Source: an uncultured Clostridia bacterium (GTDB taxonomy: Bacteria; Bacillota; Clostridia; Oscillospirales; Acutalibacteraceae). Taken from it: a DNA stretch of 62,235 nt. Positions within the stretch are counted from its first letter, which is position 1, and the number at the start of each line of letters is the position of its first letter. Positions 54,491 to 62,235 of this stretch are shown here, piece by piece. Made by a program: the position numbers and the translations under genes. Below the pieces are notes generated by a model. It had not been told where the DNA came from. It saw only the letters and a list, made by a program, of their open reading frames with translations, and did not search any database. The stretch is from NCBI GenBank assembly GCA_944380845.1, contig CALWIU010000025.1, forward strand, positions 1 through 62,235. The letters are read 5' to 3'.

Positions 54491-55525
54491 TTAATAATTT
54501 ACTATATTGTAATTATAGGAAGCTTTGTCATCCAAGGCTAATGATGTCCAATATGCGAACCCTCCTTGATTCATAATATTGCCCCCGGACTGTGAACTAT
54601 GGTCCAATCCAAGCACATGTCCTAATTCGTGCATGACGACCTTTTGACGAATAACATCGCCATCCAACGCGTCCATGGCGGAGGTATAAAAGGTTACTTT
54701 TTTATTTATATAATCTGTTGACGCCGTTGCATTCGGGTTCCCAGAAGCTACTGTTTCATCTTGTATTGTAAAATCATTGACTGTTAGATTTGTATCTTGA
54801 CGAAAACGATTCGTTCCCATATAGGCGTTCCACGCTGCTACGCCCCTATTAAAAAGAGCCTGATATTTTGTGGAGCCGCTATAATCACAGTGACCTAATA
54901 AATCCACCAAATGTGAAATACCATAAGACGGCATACGGTTTGTACTTTCAAAAACCCAATACTGGTTAAATGCTGTATCTACGGTTGAATAAGTATCCCA
55001 TTGCACAAGTTTAGTTTCATTACCTGTTGCACCATATAGAGCTTCCACATATTTGAGCGTTCCCTGCAAAAGTGATTGCTTATTAACAATTTTAGACACA
55101 CCATATTGATTATATGCTACAGTGGTAAAAATTGCACGAGACGGAATTGGTGTCCCGTCAGGAAAATATTCCAAAATAAGATAAGAGCCATTCGCTGCTG
55201 CTCCACCTTCCGATGATTCTAAATAGTTGACAGACAATAAATACCTATTATTGAGAGCAGAACGAATTAGGAAAAAACCATCAGAAAACATATAGATATC
55301 CCATTGCTGCGCCAATGATTGATTACCTTCATATATTTGCGCCTTTTCTCCTGACGATAATGTACCCCCAGGAACATCAATATATTTTCCACTTTTTACG
55401 CCTCGAATAAAGACTCTATCCCCGTGCGATATTTCAATTCCGACGGCCGAACTGTAAATGCTTGTGAGTGCAGTAATGCTAAGAATCACACAAAAAGCAA
55501 ATAATAAACACATCCATTTTCTCAT
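54491..55525 (-). CDS. Secreted RICIN-lectin/matrixin metalloprotease
   Basis: 344 residues. Signal peptide or anchor (residues 1-28). Residues about 34-195 look like a RICIN beta-trefoil lectin (GKYIDVPGG, QQWDIY, FFLIRSALNNRYL). The C-terminal domain is a matrixin-type zincin: HELGHVLGLDH with His299, Glu300, His303 and His309, and a Met-turn at Met318 (NIMNQGG). The enzyme would cleave proteins or peptides after lectin-directed binding. ATG 55525 has AGGAGG 8 nt upstream; a TTG two codons earlier is less likely. Codon use is AT-rich, suggesting acquisition. Confidence 0.82.
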   Translation of the reverse strand: MRKWMCLLFAFCVILSITALTSIYSSAVGIEISHGDRVFIRGVKSGKYIDVPGGTLSSGEKAQIYEGNQSLAQQWDIYMFSDGFFLIRSALNNRYLLSVNYLESSEGGAAANGSYLILEYFPDGTPIPSRAIFTTVAYNQYGVSKIVNKQSLLQGTLKYVEALYGATGNETKLVQWDTYSTVDTAFNQYWVFESTNRMPSYGISHLVDLLGHCDYSGSTKYQALFNRGVAAWNAYMGTNRFRQDTNLTVNDFTIQDETVASGNPNATASTDYINKKVTFYTSAMDALDGDVIRQKVVMHELGHVLGLDHSSQSGGNIMNQGGFAYWTSLALDDKASYNYNIVNY

Positions 55526-55736
55526 TAACAATACCTCCTTTTACGATTAAAAACGATAGACAAAATACTTTCCTGCAGAATATCACCTCCATTGAATATT
55601 TTTCCATGAGCGCAACAGCTATCCATTAAATTTTTCAGAAAGAAACTACCTATCAGGATTTTGCCACATGGTTGCTTTTCGCTTTGATTTCATCTTAATC
55701 AGCTGAATTTTCTAAAAACATATATATTGTAATTCG

Positions 55737-56178: not shown

Positions 56179-57612
56179 TCAGGATTCTTTCAATACTTTT
56201 TCCGTGATTTCGCCGAGTTTCACCGGGTTGGCTCTGCCGCCCAGGGCTTTCATGACCTGACCGACAATCGCCTTGGCGGCTGCGGTTTTTCCTTTTTTGT
56301 AATCCGCTACGCTCTTCGGGTTGGCAGCAGCGGCTTTGCGTACCTCCTGTTCCAGGATCGCCTCATCGTTGATCTGGGCAAGGTTTTCCTCCCGAACGGT
56401 TTTTTCCGGATCAATCCCGTCGGCGAACATACGCTGAAGCAGCTTTTTGGCGGTAGAAGAATTGATGACATCTTCACCAAACAGATCACAGAGTTTTGCC
56501 ATTTGATCCGGCGCGATGGGACAAGAAAAGCTTTCGGAATCCACCATGCGCAGGATGTCGCTGATCAGCATATTGGCGGCGATTTTCGGATAAGCAGTCT
56601 GTCCGGCGACCTGTTCAAACCAGTCCGCCATGGCGCGGTCAGCGGTCAGCTGTTCGCTGTCGTAAGCGCTTAATGCGTATTGCTGCATATATTTTGCTTT
56701 GCGCGCGTCAGGCAATTCGGGGATCTCAGCACGGAAAGCTTCGATCTGTTCACGGGTCAAAACGATCGGAGGAAGATCGGGGTCGGGGAAATACCGGTAA
56801 TCGTTGGCGTCCTCTTTGGAACGCATGGTATAGGTTTTTCCCGTATCCGGGTCAAAGCGGCGCGTTTCCTGCACGATGGTTTCGCCTTTTTCGATGGCCT
56901 CTACCTGTCGCTTATATTCGTACTCGATCGCTTTTACCACAAAACGGAAAGAGTTCAGATTCTTCATTTCGGTACGGGTGCCGAAAGCGGTTTCCCCGAC
57001 TTTGCGTACCGACAGGTTCACATCACAGCGCATGGACCCTTCGTTCATTTTACAGTCGGAAACGCCGGTATATAAAATCGTTGCACGCAATTTGCGCATA
57101 TACGCTTCCGCCTCTTCGGCTGAACGAATATCCGGCTCGGAAACGATCTCTATCAGAGGCACGCCGCAGCGATTGCAGTCAATCATGGTGCCGTGCTCGT
57201 CATCATGAACGAGTTTGCCTGCGTCCTCTTCGATGTGAATGCGGGTGATACCGATTTTTTTGGCGCCGTTTTCCGTTTCGATCTCCAGCCAGCCATGCTC
57301 GCACAAAGGCAGATCATACTGTGAAATCTGATACGCTTTCGGCAGATCGGGATAAAAATAGTTCTTTCGATCTTCCTTGGAATATTTTGCGATCTGGCAG
57401 TTGGTGGCAAGACCCGCCTTGACCGCGTATTCCACCACCTTGCCGTTCAGCACAGGCAGCGTTCCCGGAAGCCCCATACAAACCGGGCAGACATGGGTAT
57501 TCGGCGCAGCGCCAAAGGTTGTGGGACAGGAACAAAAGATCTTGGTTTCGGTGTTCAGCTCCACATGGACTTCCAGTCCGATAACCATTTCATATCCTTT
57601 ATAATATTGCAT
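56179..57612 (-). CDS. gatB: Aspartyl/glutamyl-tRNA(Asn/Gln) amidotransferase subunit B
   Basis: 477 residues. Kinase/amidation subunit of GatCAB, binding the mischarged tRNA. Family motifs: VIGLEVHVELNT, IFCSC, VCPVCMGLPG and the later RIHIEEDAGK, with the YqeY-like helical C-terminus (from about 400). ATG at 57612 is preferred over a GTG at 57621 that overlaps the gatA stop as GTGA; both are supported by AAGGA. Coupled to gatA. Confidence 0.95.
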   Translation of the reverse strand: MQYYKGYEMVIGLEVHVELNTETKIFCSCPTTFGAAPNTHVCPVCMGLPGTLPVLNGKVVEYAVKAGLATNCQIAKYSKEDRKNYFYPDLPKAYQISQYDLPLCEHGWLEIETENGAKKIGITRIHIEEDAGKLVHDDEHGTMIDCNRCGVPLIEIVSEPDIRSAEEAEAYMRKLRATILYTGVSDCKMNEGSMRCDVNLSVRKVGETAFGTRTEMKNLNSFRFVVKAIEYEYKRQVEAIEKGETIVQETRRFDPDTGKTYTMRSKEDANDYRYFPDPDLPPIVLTREQIEAFRAEIPELPDARKAKYMQQYALSAYDSEQLTADRAMADWFEQVAGQTAYPKIAANMLISDILRMVDSESFSCPIAPDQMAKLCDLFGEDVINSSTAKKLLQRMFADGIDPEKTVREENLAQINDEAILEQEVRKAAAANPKSVADYKKGKTAAAKAIVGQVMKALGGRANPVKLGEITEKVLKES

Positions 57613-57617
57613 CACGC

Positions 57618-59066
57618 TCACATCCTTTCCTTACGGGCATTTTCCAAAGCTGCGCCGACTCGATACAGCAGCGATTCGGAAAACACCTTTCCGATCAGCT
57701 GGCAGCCGATGGGCAGGCCGGTTTCGGTAGCTCCGCAGGGCAATGAAAGCGCGGGCACGCCGGCGATATTGACCGGCACGCTGTAAGCGTCGCCCATATA
57801 CATTTCCAGCGGGTCGGCGGATTTTTCACCGATTTTATAAGCGGGGGTCGGCGCAACTGGCGAAAGAATGACATCGCAGGATTCAAACACCCGGTTAAAG
57901 TCGGCGGTCACGAGACTTCTGACCTGCTGCGCTTTTTTATAATACGCATCATAATAACCGGAGGACAAAGCGAAAGTGCCAAGCATGATCCGGCGCTTGA
58001 CCTCTTTGCCAAAGCCTTCGGAACGGGACGACAGATAAAGGTCGGTAATATCATCAAAATCCTTTGCCCGGTAACCGTAGCGAATACCGTCAAAACGCGC
58101 AAGGTTGGAAGATGCCTCGGCGCTGGAAATGATATAGTACGCCGAAAGGGCATGGGGAATGGAGGGCATGGAAACTTCATGAAGCTGCGCGCCCATCTTT
58201 TCAAAGATTCCGGCGGCGTTCAAAACCGCATTTTTGACCTCGGGAGCAATTCCTTCCGCAAAGAATTCCTTCGGGATACCGATGGAAAGCCCTTTGACGC
58301 CTTTGCCGATATCTGCGGTAAAATCGGCTGTCTGGCGGGCAAGAGAAGTCGCGTCGCGCTTGTCATGACCGCTGATCGCGTTCAAAACAATGGCGTTATC
58401 TTCAACGGTTCGGGTCAGCGGCCCGATCTGATCCAGCGAAGACGCAAAGGCAATCAGCCCATAGCGGGAAACAGAACCGTAAGTCGGTTTCATACCAACG
58501 ACGCCGCAGAAAGACGCGGGCTGCCGGATCGAACCGCCGGTGTCGGAACCCAGGCTGTATGCCGCCTCCATCGCCGCCACAGCCGCCGCTGAACCGCCGG
58601 AGCTGCCGCCCGGCACCCGGGTGAGATCCGCCGGGTTATGCGTGGGGTGAAAAGCGGAATTTTCACAGGACGACCCCATGGCGAATTCATCCATATTTAA
58701 CTTACCCAAAAGCACATAATCATTTTTTTTCAGCCGCTCGATGACATCGGCGTCATAAGGCGGGACATACTCGCCAAGCATTTTTGACGCGCAGGTAGTA
58801 CGGATATTCCGGGTGCAGATATTATCCTTGATTCCGGCAGGAATCCCCGCCAGCAAAGCAAGGGGCTGTCCGGCGGCGCGTTTCTGATCGACCGCTTCTG
58901 CGGCAGCAAGCGCCTGTTCGGGGAAAATGCTGATGTACGCGCCGATATCTTTTTCTTTTTCTTCAATTTGCGTCAAATACGCCTGCGTCAGCTCTTTGGC
59001 GCTGAATTCACCGTTTTTCAGCCCGTCGATCTGTTGGCTGAGCGTGCGTTTCACCAATTCGTTCAT
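57618..59066 (-). CDS. gatA: Aspartyl/glutamyl-tRNA amidotransferase subunit A
   Basis: 482 residues. Amidase-signature enzyme that supplies ammonia from glutamine or asparagine. The catalytic Lys is in GIPAGIKDN (about residue 78), the Ser-Gly stretch GGSSGGSAAAVAA and the nucleophile-region GSDTGGSIRQPAS. It begins 12 nt after the end of the aspS-gatC gene (AAGGAGG between), so the three form one operon. Confidence 0.96.
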   Translation of the reverse strand: MNELVKRTLSQQIDGLKNGEFSAKELTQAYLTQIEEKEKDIGAYISIFPEQALAAAEAVDQKRAAGQPLALLAGIPAGIKDNICTRNIRTTCASKMLGEYVPPYDADVIERLKKNDYVLLGKLNMDEFAMGSSCENSAFHPTHNPADLTRVPGGSSGGSAAAVAAMEAAYSLGSDTGGSIRQPASFCGVVGMKPTYGSVSRYGLIAFASSLDQIGPLTRTVEDNAIVLNAISGHDKRDATSLARQTADFTADIGKGVKGLSIGIPKEFFAEGIAPEVKNAVLNAAGIFEKMGAQLHEVSMPSIPHALSAYYIISSAEASSNLARFDGIRYGYRAKDFDDITDLYLSSRSEGFGKEVKRRIMLGTFALSSGYYDAYYKKAQQVRSLVTADFNRVFESCDVILSPVAPTPAYKIGEKSADPLEMYMGDAYSVPVNIAGVPALSLPCGATETGLPIGCQLIGKVFSESLLYRVGAALENARKERM

Positions 59067-59078
59067 TCTGCTCCCTCC

Positions 59079-61163
59079 TTATTCCACGACGCGCGGAACG
59101 GTGACATAGCCGTCCGCCGTAGTCGGCGCCGCTTTCAACAGCTCGTCTCTGGTAAAGGCGGAAACCGCCCGATCTTCGCGAAACACATTGGAAAGGGGCG
59201 CGATATGCGCGGTTGCCTCGATGCCTTCGGTATCGATCGAAGCGATACTGTCGGCAAAATTGATGATGGAAACCATGTCCTGCGCCAGTTCCTTCTTTTC
59301 TTCAGCGGAAAAACGCAGGCGCGCCAATTTGGCGATATTATCAACATCAATATCCTTGGCGGTCTTTTTGCCGCTCTTTGCCGAATCGGTTTGAGCCGCT
59401 GTAAACGCCTTATCCAGACCTAAAATTTCAAGCTGCGCAGGATCCACATGATCCGGCGCATCGGTCAGCGGACAGGACGCGTCCTTATTTTTCGGGAAAG
59501 CGATGACCTCCCGCAAAGAGTCAGCGCCGACAAGCAGCATGACAAAGCGATCCAGACCAAAGGCAAATCCGGCATGAGGCGGCGTGCCGAAGCGGAACGC
59601 ATTGACCATAAAACCGAAACGGTCATGAATCTGCTCATCGGAAAGCCCCAGCGCCTCAAACATTTTTTCCTGAATGTCATGATCGTGGATACGAACAGAG
59701 CCGGAACCCAGCTCGATGCCGTTAAGCACCACATCGTATGCCTGCGCGCGCACCCGCGCCGGATCGGAAAACAGATACTGCACATCCTCCGGGTAAGGCA
59801 TGGTGAAGGGATGGTGCGTGGAAATGTAGCGGTGTTCCTCTTCGGAATATTCAAACTGCGGGAAGTCGGTAACAAAGAGGAAGCGATATTCATTTTTATC
59901 CCGCAGAGAGAGCATATCACCCAGCACAAGACGCAGGCCGCCCAGAACACGGCGTACCGTTGCCAGTTTATCGGCGCTGAACAGAATGAAATCACCGGGT
60001 TTGGCATCCATTGCCTGAAGCATCGCCTGCATTTGCTCATCGGAAAAATATTTGGTCAGGATAGAATAGATTTCGCCGTCCGGCTTCCATGCGATCCACG
60101 CCATACCTTTTGCCCCGAGCTTAACGGCTTTTTCGGTCAGATCCTCAATGGTGGAGCGGGTAAAATCCGCCTTGCCTTTGACATTGATCGCACGCACGAC
60201 GCCGCCCTTGTCCAAAACAGAACGAAAAACGCTGAACTGACAGCCACGGACGGTTTCCGTCAGATCGACAATCGGCAAATCAAAACGAATATCCGGCTTA
60301 TCCGATCCGTAAATATCCATTGCATCCGTCCATGTCATACGGGGGAAGGGGTCGGTGATTTCAATATTTTTGACCCGTTTCATCAAATATTTAAAAAGTT
60401 TTTCCAGATGAACCAGCACATCCTCCTGCTCGACAAAGGACATTTCCATATCCACCTGGGTAAATTCCGGCTGGCGGTCGGCACGAAGATCCTCGTCGCG
60501 GAAGCAGCGAGCGACCTGATAATATTTGTCAATACCGCCGACCATCAAAAGCTGTTTAAAAATCTGCGGAGACTGCGGCAGCGCGTAAAAGCACCCGGGG
60601 TGCACCCGGCTGGGAACCAGATAATCCCGCGCGCCTTCCGGCGTGGATTTGGTCAGCATCGGCGTTTCCACACAAAGAAAGCCTTCGTTGTCCAAATAAT
60701 CTTCCGCTGCCTTTTGAACAATATGACGGAACTTGAGGTTCCGGAACATTTCCGGGCGGCGCAAATCCAAAAACCGGTATTTCAGTCTGAGATCTTCGCG
60801 CACGGCGGAACCGTCCTCCAGCGCATAGGGAAGCGGATCCGACGGAGAAAGAAGCGTTACTTCATCCGCCAGAAGTTCTACCGTACCGGTTTTGATTTTC
60901 GGGTTCACGGTTTCTTCATCGCGCAGGCGAATCACGCCGCTGACGCAGATTACGGATTGATTGTGCAGCCCCTCGGCGGTTTTAAAATCGCTCGGCGGCA
61001 GACAGGAAGCGTTGCAAACAACCTGCATAACGCCCTCCCGGTCGCCCAGATCCAGAAAAATGACCCCGCCCATATCGCGCTTGGTCCAGACCCAACCGCA
61101 CAGGGTTTGACGGGTACCGATTTGCTTTTCGGTAATCAAACCACAATATTCCGTTCGTTTCAT
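59079..61163 (-). CDS. aspS: Aspartyl-tRNA synthetase fused to GatC
   Basis: 694 residues. The first about 582 are a bacterial class II AspRS: OB-fold anticodon domain at the N-terminus (TLCGWVWTKRDMGG), motif 2 with FRDEDLRADRQPEFTQ, motif 3 with GFAFGLDRFVML. A linker rich in Ala, Lys and Ser (583-600) leads into a complete GatC domain (about 601-694: IAKLARLRFSAEE, HIAPLSNVFRED). The single frame has no stop or start between them. The start at 61163 has AAGGATG upstream and the ordinary MKRTEYCG opening. The fusion would tether the synthetase to the amidotransferase. At the anticodon-loop position often Leu or His in discriminating or relaxed enzymes, Met is found, so tRNA choice cannot be read. 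Confidence 0.92.
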   Translation of the reverse strand: MKRTEYCGLITEKQIGTRQTLCGWVWTKRDMGGVIFLDLGDREGVMQVVCNASCLPPSDFKTAEGLHNQSVICVSGVIRLRDEETVNPKIKTGTVELLADEVTLLSPSDPLPYALEDGSAVREDLRLKYRFLDLRRPEMFRNLKFRHIVQKAAEDYLDNEGFLCVETPMLTKSTPEGARDYLVPSRVHPGCFYALPQSPQIFKQLLMVGGIDKYYQVARCFRDEDLRADRQPEFTQVDMEMSFVEQEDVLVHLEKLFKYLMKRVKNIEITDPFPRMTWTDAMDIYGSDKPDIRFDLPIVDLTETVRGCQFSVFRSVLDKGGVVRAINVKGKADFTRSTIEDLTEKAVKLGAKGMAWIAWKPDGEIYSILTKYFSDEQMQAMLQAMDAKPGDFILFSADKLATVRRVLGGLRLVLGDMLSLRDKNEYRFLFVTDFPQFEYSEEEHRYISTHHPFTMPYPEDVQYLFSDPARVRAQAYDVVLNGIELGSGSVRIHDHDIQEKMFEALGLSDEQIHDRFGFMVNAFRFGTPPHAGFAFGLDRFVMLLVGADSLREVIAFPKNKDASCPLTDAPDHVDPAQLEILGLDKAFTAAQTDSAKSGKKTAKDIDVDNIAKLARLRFSAEEKKELAQDMVSIINFADSIASIDTEGIEATAHIAPLSNVFREDRAVSAFTRDELLKAAPTTADGYVTVPRVVE

Positions 61164-61209: not shown

Positions 61210-61500
61210 AAAAAAACCTTTCCTCTCGAAAACTTCATCAAGAAGTGTTCGGGACGAAAGGGAACTTCCGCGGTGCCACCCGTATGGCTGCCGAAACAGC
61301 CGCTCAGCGGTACAGACATACCGCCGCGCTGTAACGGGCGCACCCGTACCGTTCTACTCACCCGCCGAAGCGGACTTTCTTCGGAAAGCTCAGGGCTGTT
61401 TTTCGTATTGACTGCTGACGCCGGCTCACACCAACCGCCGGCTCTCTTGGCTCAAAAAATCAACCTACTCTGCCCGTCTTTGCTGATTATTTATCAAATT
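61210..61500 (-). ncRNA. T-box riboswitch leader of aspS-gatC-gatA-gatB
   Basis: On the minus strand in order: stem I base GACGGGC with AGAGTA (61478-61466), the AGAGAGC and GCCGGC hairpin with GGTTGGTG, a specifier loop (61404-61398) containing GAA and AAC followed by A and GCCC that closes stem I, then the antiterminator T-box GGGTGGCACCGCGG (61281-61268) and an overlapping terminator (61262-61217) with a seven-T tract. Uncharged tRNA would stabilise the antiterminator. AAC (Asn) precedes the conserved purine; GAA (Glu) lies 1 nt upstream of it. Confidence 0.9.
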
Positions 61501-61506
61501 ATAGTT

Positions 61507-61535
61507 ATTATACTATTTTGTCTTTTCCTTGTCAA
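61507..61535 (-). promoter_or_regulatory. Consensus promoter of the T-box operon
   Basis: Perfect TTGACA (61535-61530) and perfect TATAAT (61512-61507), spacer 17 bp. The transcript would start near 61500. Confidence 0.9.
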
Positions 61536-61630
61536 TCATTTTTCCCGTATGTTTTTCCGCAGATTTACAGTATGACATATTTTTGCAACAAATAACCATT
61601 CTTGGCAACGCAATGTTTACATATCCTTCA

Positions 61631-61659
61631 TGAAATCCGTGAACAAAAACTGATATAAT
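61631..61659 (+). promoter_or_regulatory. Putative promoter of the alpha/beta hydrolase
   Basis: TGAAAT (61631-61636) and TATAAT (61654-61659), 17-bp spacer. The -35 is weak. The leader is about 75 nt. Confidence 0.5.
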
Positions 61660-61740
61660 TATGTATAGAAGTTGAACAAATAAGATTGTTCAGCTCGAAG
61701 TATCGTTTTTTCGACAAAATAATCATCAGGAGTGAGCAAT

Positions 61741-62235
61741 ATGTTTGAAAAAATCATCGCGTTTTTCTTGTCCATCATCGTATTTTTTGCAAACCTGTTC
61801 GGAATCAGCATTCCGGGCGTGACTGAGCCGGCGGATTCGGGAAGTTATATCTATACCGACGCCGCCTATGGCGATGAGGAACGCCAGATTCTGGATTTGT
61901 ACATTCCGAAAGAGTCGGACGGTACCATTGGACTGGCACTGTTTATCCACGGCGGCGCCTGGATTGCCGGCGACAAAAACGCTTACAGCGCCAATATGCT
62001 GCGCTATGTCAGCGAGGATGTTGGTCTTGCGGCGGCTGCCATCAACTACCGCTTTCTTTCGGAGACGGTCAATTTGCACGATATCATCGATGATATTGAT
62101 TTGGCGCTGCAATTTATCAAAGAAAAAGGCGAGGAAAACGGCGTTACCATCGATAAAGCCATGTTGACCGGCACCTCGGCAGGTGCGCACCTGTCGCTGC
62201 TTTACGCCTATTCCATGAAAGATACCGCCCCGATT
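61741..62235 (+). CDS. Alpha/beta hydrolase, 5' part (runs off the window)
   Basis: 165 residues visible, no stop before the edge. The N-terminus is a hydrophobic anchor or signal segment (residues 4-20). The body is an esterase/lipase of the HSL-like group: oxyanion motif HGGAW at about 74-78 and the nucleophile elbow GTSAGA at about 148-153. Ribosome site AGGAG 8 nt before the ATG. The acid and His of the triad lie beyond the edge. Substrate unknown; possibly a carbohydrate esterase. Confidence 0.85.
   Translation, partial: MFEKIIAFFLSIIVFFANLFGISIPGVTEPADSGSYIYTDAAYGDEERQILDLYIPKESDGTIGLALFIHGGAWIAGDKNAYSANMLRYVSEDVGLAAAAINYRFLSETVNLHDIIDDIDLALQFIKEKGEENGVTIDKAMLTGTSAGAHLSLLYAYSMKDTAPI

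Follow-up and report, generated by a model that had tools for sequence, protein, structure and literature searches.

Among the closest described systems is the T-box of the Clostridium acetobutylicum transamidation operon, which controls tRNA-dependent amidation and counts tRNA-Asn as one of its ligands; this organism can make Asn-tRNA by more than one route (Saad 2012 J Biol Chem and Saad 2013 PNAS, as reported in PMC4052509, PMC4206432, and PMC7778990). This T-box is reported to have overlapping Glu and Asn codons (PMC4052509, seen in part). Asn specificity is known among T-boxes more generally, and AAC makes up a fraction of 0.98 of the Asn specifiers in Table 1 of the T-box database TBDB (PMC7778990, in the sections consulted). 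The accessible parts of a 2008 survey report no T-boxes before the tRNA amidotransferase genes examined there, and place one of three C. acetobutylicum aspS genes under T-box control (PMC2494555). Fusions of AspRS to GatC are represented by NF009460/PRK12820, a bifunctional AspRS/GatC with two named activities. Among the titles and abstract openings that we saw in the open literature, none is about T-boxes of AspRS-GatC fusions, which we do not take as absence from print.

The DNA analyzed here (the window, a stretch of 62,235 nucleotides) contains a T-box leader followed by genes for an AspRS-GatC fusion, gatA, and gatB. As in C. acetobutylicum, a tRNA-dependent amidation operon stands under a T-box with tRNA-Asn as an indicated ligand, and the organism has redundant routes to Asn-tRNA. 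The leader differs from the C. acetobutylicum T-box in having no overlapping Glu codon, and the window's system differs in that GlnRS is encoded in the genome and there is a single GatB match, and perhaps also in its fusion of AspRS to GatC. The features are as follows.

61507..61535, minus strand: sigma-70 promoter, with TTGACA at 61535-61530, a 17-nt spacer, and TATAAT at 61512-61507 (12/12 consensus matches in a pattern scan)
61247..61489, minus strand: T-box leader RNA, RF00230 (99 bits, gathering score 93, E 1.3e-20)
61393..61475, minus strand: Stem I, closed at its base by the helix GGGC (61475-61472)/GCCC (61396-61393), by Rfam alignment
61466..61469, minus strand: AGUA, on the 5' side of the S-turn (loop E) in Stem I, by Rfam alignment
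61443..61447, minus strand: AGAGA, which with GGUGUGA at 61432-61426 makes up the apical double T-loop (tRNA elbow contact), by Rfam alignment
61402..61404, minus strand: GAA, on the 3' side of the same S-turn, the conserved GAA of the Rfam consensus; called a Glu codon in an earlier note on this DNA
61398..61400, minus strand: specifier AAC (Asn), preceded by A61401 and followed by A61397, by Rfam alignment
61250..61282, minus strand: antiterminator, by Rfam alignment
61275..61278, minus strand: UGGC of the antiterminator bulge, complementary in sequence to the GCCA of tRNA-Asn
61210..61261, minus strand: intrinsic terminator (hairpin plus U tract), which overlaps the 3' arm of the antiterminator
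59079..61163, minus strand: AspRS-GatC fusion, 694 aa, ATG at 61163 (Pfam tRNA-synt_2, GAD, tRNA_anti-codon, GatC)
57618..59066, minus strand: gatA (TIGR00132, 643.8 bits, cut-off 481.1)
56179..57621, minus strand: gatB (NF004012, 661 bits, cut-off 338)

The leader passes the RF00230 gathering score and shares with this family of transcriptional T-boxes the long Stem I with its AGUA/GAA S-turn and AGAGA apical module, Stem III, the UGGN antiterminator, and the terminator, with nothing of note that is different. We take AGUA and GAA to be the two strands of the S-turn, which fits the Rfam alignment, and AGAGA presumably contacts the tRNA elbow. The S-turn (loop E) above the specifier, and the role of the apical double T-loop as tRNA elbow contact, are both given in the parts seen of a T-box review (PMC7583486). 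The terminator folds at -22.2 kcal/mol (z -3.9), with 0/200 shuffles as stable, and is the one terminator-like site in a pattern scan in which 0.7 are expected; the antiterminator adopts the expected fold at -11.1 kcal/mol, which is not better than shuffles (z -0.27). The arms of these two hairpins overlap and both hairpins fold, as mutually exclusive structures should, and only the terminator beats its shuffles. Folding of Stem I by energy only did not yield the T-box fold (z -0.48), and RNAalifold and single-sequence folding told us little about the part of the stem beyond its basal helix. The RNA is thus a real, canonical transcriptional T-box, an ordinary tRNA-sensing switch.

The specifier loop has the letters that the earlier note gave, GAA-A-AAC before the closing GCCC: on the minus strand, 61405-61393 reads C-GAA-A-AAC-A-GCCC, and 61404-61398 (GAAAAAC) is the 3' strand of the loop. 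In the covariance alignment to the Rfam T-box model, a check that had been set beforehand, AAC stands in the specifier columns, followed by an A and then by the GCCC that closes Stem I, and no GAC or GAU specifier is seen. The proposal that AAC is the specifier, and that the operon is tuned to tRNA-Asn and not tRNA-Asp, agrees with this alignment and with the related leaders described below. The TBDB rule, which counts from the end of the specifier bulge, takes bases 2-4 as the specifier, and allows the -1 and +1 frames as alternatives (PMC7778990, seen in part), also gives AAC; the frames -1/0/+1 of the window loop are AAA, AAC, and ACA, and GAA is in none of them. The note had further described the Asn and Glu codons as overlapping, which is incorrect, as GAA (61404-61402) and AAC (61400-61398) share no base and have one A between them. 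Because the base before AAC is A, the overlapping codon in the one-base-shifted frame is AAA (Lys), not GAA. The GAA/AAC overlap of C. acetobutylicum is reportedly a one-base shift (GAAC), and the window loop reads AAAC at this place.

The GAA of the window aligns with the upper-case (conserved) GAA of the Rfam consensus immediately 5' of the specifier. As a control, a Stem I model (R1) made from seven AspRS-GatC leaders was run over 43 loci, consisting of these seven leaders, the seven other T-boxes of the source genome, and 29 top-scoring T-boxes of relatives; it matched 41 of them (not L002 or L099), two stray matches were dropped, and specificities were taken from the aligned letters, not from downstream genes. 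GAA is present at positions -4 to -2 in six of the seven AspRS-GatC leaders. It is also there in 28 of the 34 aligned T-boxes that have another specificity, a figure that leans to consensus-like loops because 29 of the 36 non-Asn control loci were picked by Rfam score. The source genome has eight T-box matches (specifiers Phe, Trp, Asn in the window, Leu, Ile, Ala, Trp, and Tyr), and among the seven outside the window, which are unselected, GAA precedes the specifier in four (Phe, both Trp, Ile) and is absent in three (Leu, Ala, Tyr). With GAA this common at -4 to -2 in other specificities, its presence there is no sign of Glu; many T-boxes carry GAA directly before the specifier as a structural element, and it is a trap for anyone reading T-box codons by eye. 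When 14 Stem I sequences of mixed origin were aligned with MAFFT, several specifiers came out in the wrong place, and that alignment was excluded from the counts.

Among 148 genomes, seven (the source included) encode an AspRS-GatC fusion of at least 63% identity, and all seven have a T-box just upstream with AAC as specifier. AAC is kept in these leaders although much of Stem I has changed; all four basal helix pairs are kept in 7/7 aligned leaders, two of the four with both sides changed, and the antiterminator has UGGC in four and UGGU in three. The comparison of the loop in relatives, which the earlier note had proposed, comes out in two parts: AAC is lost in none, and GAA is not kept throughout, being AGA in one of the seven close leaders (G005). 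We also took the best 80 named loci among the matches listed from GTDB species genomes. R1 finds a T-box at 60 of these (61 matches, one stray in L163 dropped), and the specifier columns read AAC in 60/60, a count to which R1 itself contributes a bias, being built from seven AAC leaders and favoring AAC-like loops, as does the counting script, which sought AAC. The specifier columns were, however, also read without an AAC search, and other T-boxes aligned by R1 show their own codons there. Three of the 60 loci encode the same protein as G058, G085, and G103. At L165 the T-box is seen by its core motif, with AAC by eye; of the other 19, four have 283 nt or less upstream and 15 are without a convincing T-box core in the 651-1000 nt examined. 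L209 and L212 gave stray-looking matches only.

The acceptor ends of the tRNAs agree with the specifier. The genome's own tRNA-Asn (GUU) ends in G73-CCA and has a U1-A72 pair, which is the tRNA-Asn identity pair recognized by GatCAB (PMC4206432, in the part seen). Both tRNA-Glu (UUC and CUC) and tRNA-Lys (CUU) of the genome have A73, and because UGGC pairs with G73 and not with A73, the antiterminator bulge favors Asn over Glu and Lys. G73 is shared by the tRNA-Asp of the two relatives in which this tRNA was identified (G085 and G103), so UGGC does not separate Asn from Asp; the specifier alone does.

The fusion protein is above the cut-offs of TIGR00459 (741.9 bits) and TIGR00135 (82.4 bits). 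It matches 699/723 positions of NF009460 and scores 634.7 against a cut-off of 1379, and is therefore not a member of that named family. With gatA and gatB downstream, GatC, GatA, and GatB are all encoded in the operon, the genes needed for tRNA-dependent Asn synthesis, and gatB is the only GatB match in the source genome (87% complete; E 1e-10). The genome also has a second AspRS (AspRS1; 805.7 bits, cut-off 443) beside hisS on contig C26, where none of the eight T-box matches lies, as well as AsnRS on C42 (581.8 bits, cut-off 342.6), LysRS on C41, GlnRS on C38 (727.6 bits, cut-off 425.8), and two AsnB over the cut-off. Since a GlnRS is present and only one GatB match was found, Gln-tRNA formation need not depend on GatCAB. 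Residues 29-33 of the fusion are RDMGG, as in 67/67 fusions, compared with RNLGS in AspRS1, and we presume that this site bears on tRNA discrimination by AspRS; the portions of the literature that we looked at for such a role make no mention of it. Fusion of AspRS to GatC, the presence of gatA and gatB, and the U1-A72 pair of tRNA-Asn all fit an Asn-tRNA reading of the operon. In three other genomes of the window's genus (G001, G002, and G006), whose assemblies are fragmented, there is a GatB match of 64-67% identity and no AspRS-GatC match of at least 63% identity.

We conclude with considerable confidence that this is a canonical transcriptional T-box riboswitch specific for tRNA-Asn that controls AspRS-GatC, gatA, and gatB. 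With AAC as the specifier, the operon should answer to uncharged tRNA-Asn, whose GUU anticodon would pair with AAC in the Stem I specifier loop while UGGC in the antiterminator bulge binds the GCCA at its end. Pairing at both sites would stabilize the antiterminator over the overlapping terminator and allow RNA polymerase to transcribe aspS-gatC, gatA, and gatB. The fusion AspRS would then be non-discriminating, probably putting Asp on tRNA-Asn, which GatCAB would amidate to Asn-tRNA-Asn, in addition to the route that AsnRS and AsnB of this genome provide. The only GatCAB operon found stands under an Asn T-box beside its own AspRS, and most simply this would be a further supply of Asn-tRNA-Asn that is switched on by starvation. 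Although the first gene resembles a plain aspS, the indicated ligand of the operon is Asn, not Asp or Glu, and this choice of ligand points to the fusion AspRS as a probable tRNA-Asn enzyme.

Three other ligand assignments deserve consideration. That the T-box answers to tRNA-Asp is what a plain aspS operon would lead one to expect, with AspRS as the first gene and a tRNA-Asp whose G73 could pair with UGGC in two relatives, but no GAC or GAU specifier occurs in the seven close relatives or the 60 named T-boxes, and another AspRS is available beside hisS on a contig without a T-box match; we regard this assignment as extremely improbable. Ambiguity between Lys (AAA) and Asn (AAC) would be a true one-base overlap in the window loop, which does read AAAC, and a Bacillus cereus Lys T-box is partly induced by low Asn-tRNA charging (PMC2916919, seen in part). 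However, the A73 of the genome's tRNA-Lys (CUU) is unable to pair with UGGC, the operon is without any lysine-related function, and the -1 base is G or U in 56/60 related leaders, so that a Lys response here is very improbable.

A T-box with one codon for tRNA-Asn and a second for tRNA-Glu, as described in the transamidation operon of C. acetobutylicum and as the earlier note suggested, has more to recommend it at first sight, because GAA stands in the loop of an operon that contains GatCAB, and related leaders show a GAAC arrangement whose distribution can be set against GlnRS (see below). Nonetheless, the GAA of the window begins four bases from AAC at the S-turn position, outside the -1/0/+1 frames and with AAA as the shifted codon; GAA is also a feature of T-boxes of other specificities; UGGC is unable to pair with the A73 of either tRNA-Glu; and GlnRS is encoded in the source genome. 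On position, other-specificity T-boxes, discriminator base, and GlnRS presence, we reject GAA as a second codon of a two-tRNA switch in this loop, and dual specificity of the window's T-box is accordingly a quite improbable reading. The tRNA-Asn-specific T-box is the reading that we retain.

The base before AAC varies among relatives. In the 60 named leaders it is G in 49, U in seven, and A in four, with GAA at -4 to -2 in 52; in the close set it is A in the window, G003, G004, and G058, and G in G005, G085, and G103. GAAC, the Glu/Asn codon overlap as reported for C. acetobutylicum, is therefore present in 49/60 relatives' leaders and absent in the window. G is also the -1 base in 9/9 rows reading GAA-N-UUC (Phe), with A in 4/4 reading GAA-N-UAC (Tyr), and since all Phe rows have it, G at -1 alone is no evidence of Glu reading. 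Six leaders with GAA-U-AAC (L150, L152, L157, L163, L166, and L182) are weak Stem I matches (18-29 bits), and L178 (36.5 bits) is likewise GAA-U-AAC; in all of these the -1 frame is a stop codon, which makes Glu reading impossible. AGGUGGC cores are present in L157 and L166, the two leaders whose sequence was read throughout.

We looked for GlnRS in 49 of these 60 genomes, with 34 over the cut-off, two partial matches, and 13 without, where absence may reflect an assembly gap because completeness is not given for the named genomes. On a tree of AspRS-GatC with 67 rows (60 named plus seven), the -1 base needs eight changes, at least six of them forced by supported branches. G is at -1 in 13/13 rows without GlnRS and in 28/42 with it (Fisher p 0.024), counted over the 55 tree rows with a GlnRS status, with L175 and L153 (partial matches) taken as having GlnRS and 11 further rows being without status; L146, with A at -1 and no GlnRS-family match in its genome, was left out and is an exception if counted as GlnRS-less. 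The tree has two rows each for three of the organisms (L148/L018, L184/L020, and L155/L019). Independent pairs are too few to carry the association, with two or three concordant and none discordant of six (p 0.25-0.5), and we treat it as suggestive only, a lead for dual reading in GlnRS-less relatives and not a result. A link between the -1 base and UGGN (UGGU in 45/52 G rows and 5/14 others, p 0.0003) vanishes in independent pairs (on average 1.5 the same way and 1.1 the other way) and was not used; between UGGU and GlnRS presence there is no relation (p 0.73).

Perhaps, in clostridial AspRS-GatC T-boxes, the Glu codon that overlaps AAC does confer a second specificity, but an optional one, which is retained in genomes whose GatCAB must also supply Gln-tRNA and disappears from those with a GlnRS, the window's lineage having become Asn-only through A at -1 and UGGC; we consider this doubtful. 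If true, it would provide a natural series for how dual-specificity riboswitches narrow to one ligand. The 60 leaders, with a constant AAC, a variable -1 base (G, U, or A), and genomes with and without a GlnRS match, are in any case material on which proposed two-codon T-boxes can be tested.

Five further fusions, with unbroken 40-43% identity along nearly the whole length (G016, G061, G069, G080, and G112), have a divergent form of T-box. We note this form upstream of second AspRS genes in more distant relatives, at L046, L047, L050-L054, L057, L058, L060, and L061. Its Stem I opens with AGAC, has GGAAA on the 5' side and AGUAG on the 3' side, and ends AAC-R-CU; AAC is invariant in the 11 aligned (of 20 regions), with G before it in 10/11. 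The seven loci tested against Rfam reach 32-53 bits, and a scan at the gathering score (93) therefore misses them.

Some additional genes lie in or near these operons. An extra open reading frame of 122-242 aa is present between the T-box and aspS-gatC at L148 (4234-4997), L162 (4139-5000), L167 (4177-5000), and L202 (3902-5000); a stretch AIEIDG.QH is common to the latter three, and the L148 frame looks unrelated. In the window, a 346-aa open reading frame on the minus strand at 54491-55531 has a hydrophobic start and the sequence HELGHVLGLDH, which we take to be like the zinc-binding motif of secreted metalloproteases. On the plus strand, within 61630-62235, a promoter-like site at 61630-61659 (10/12 matches) faces a divergent gene that starts near 61732 and runs off the contig end, and which is hydrolase-like by eye.
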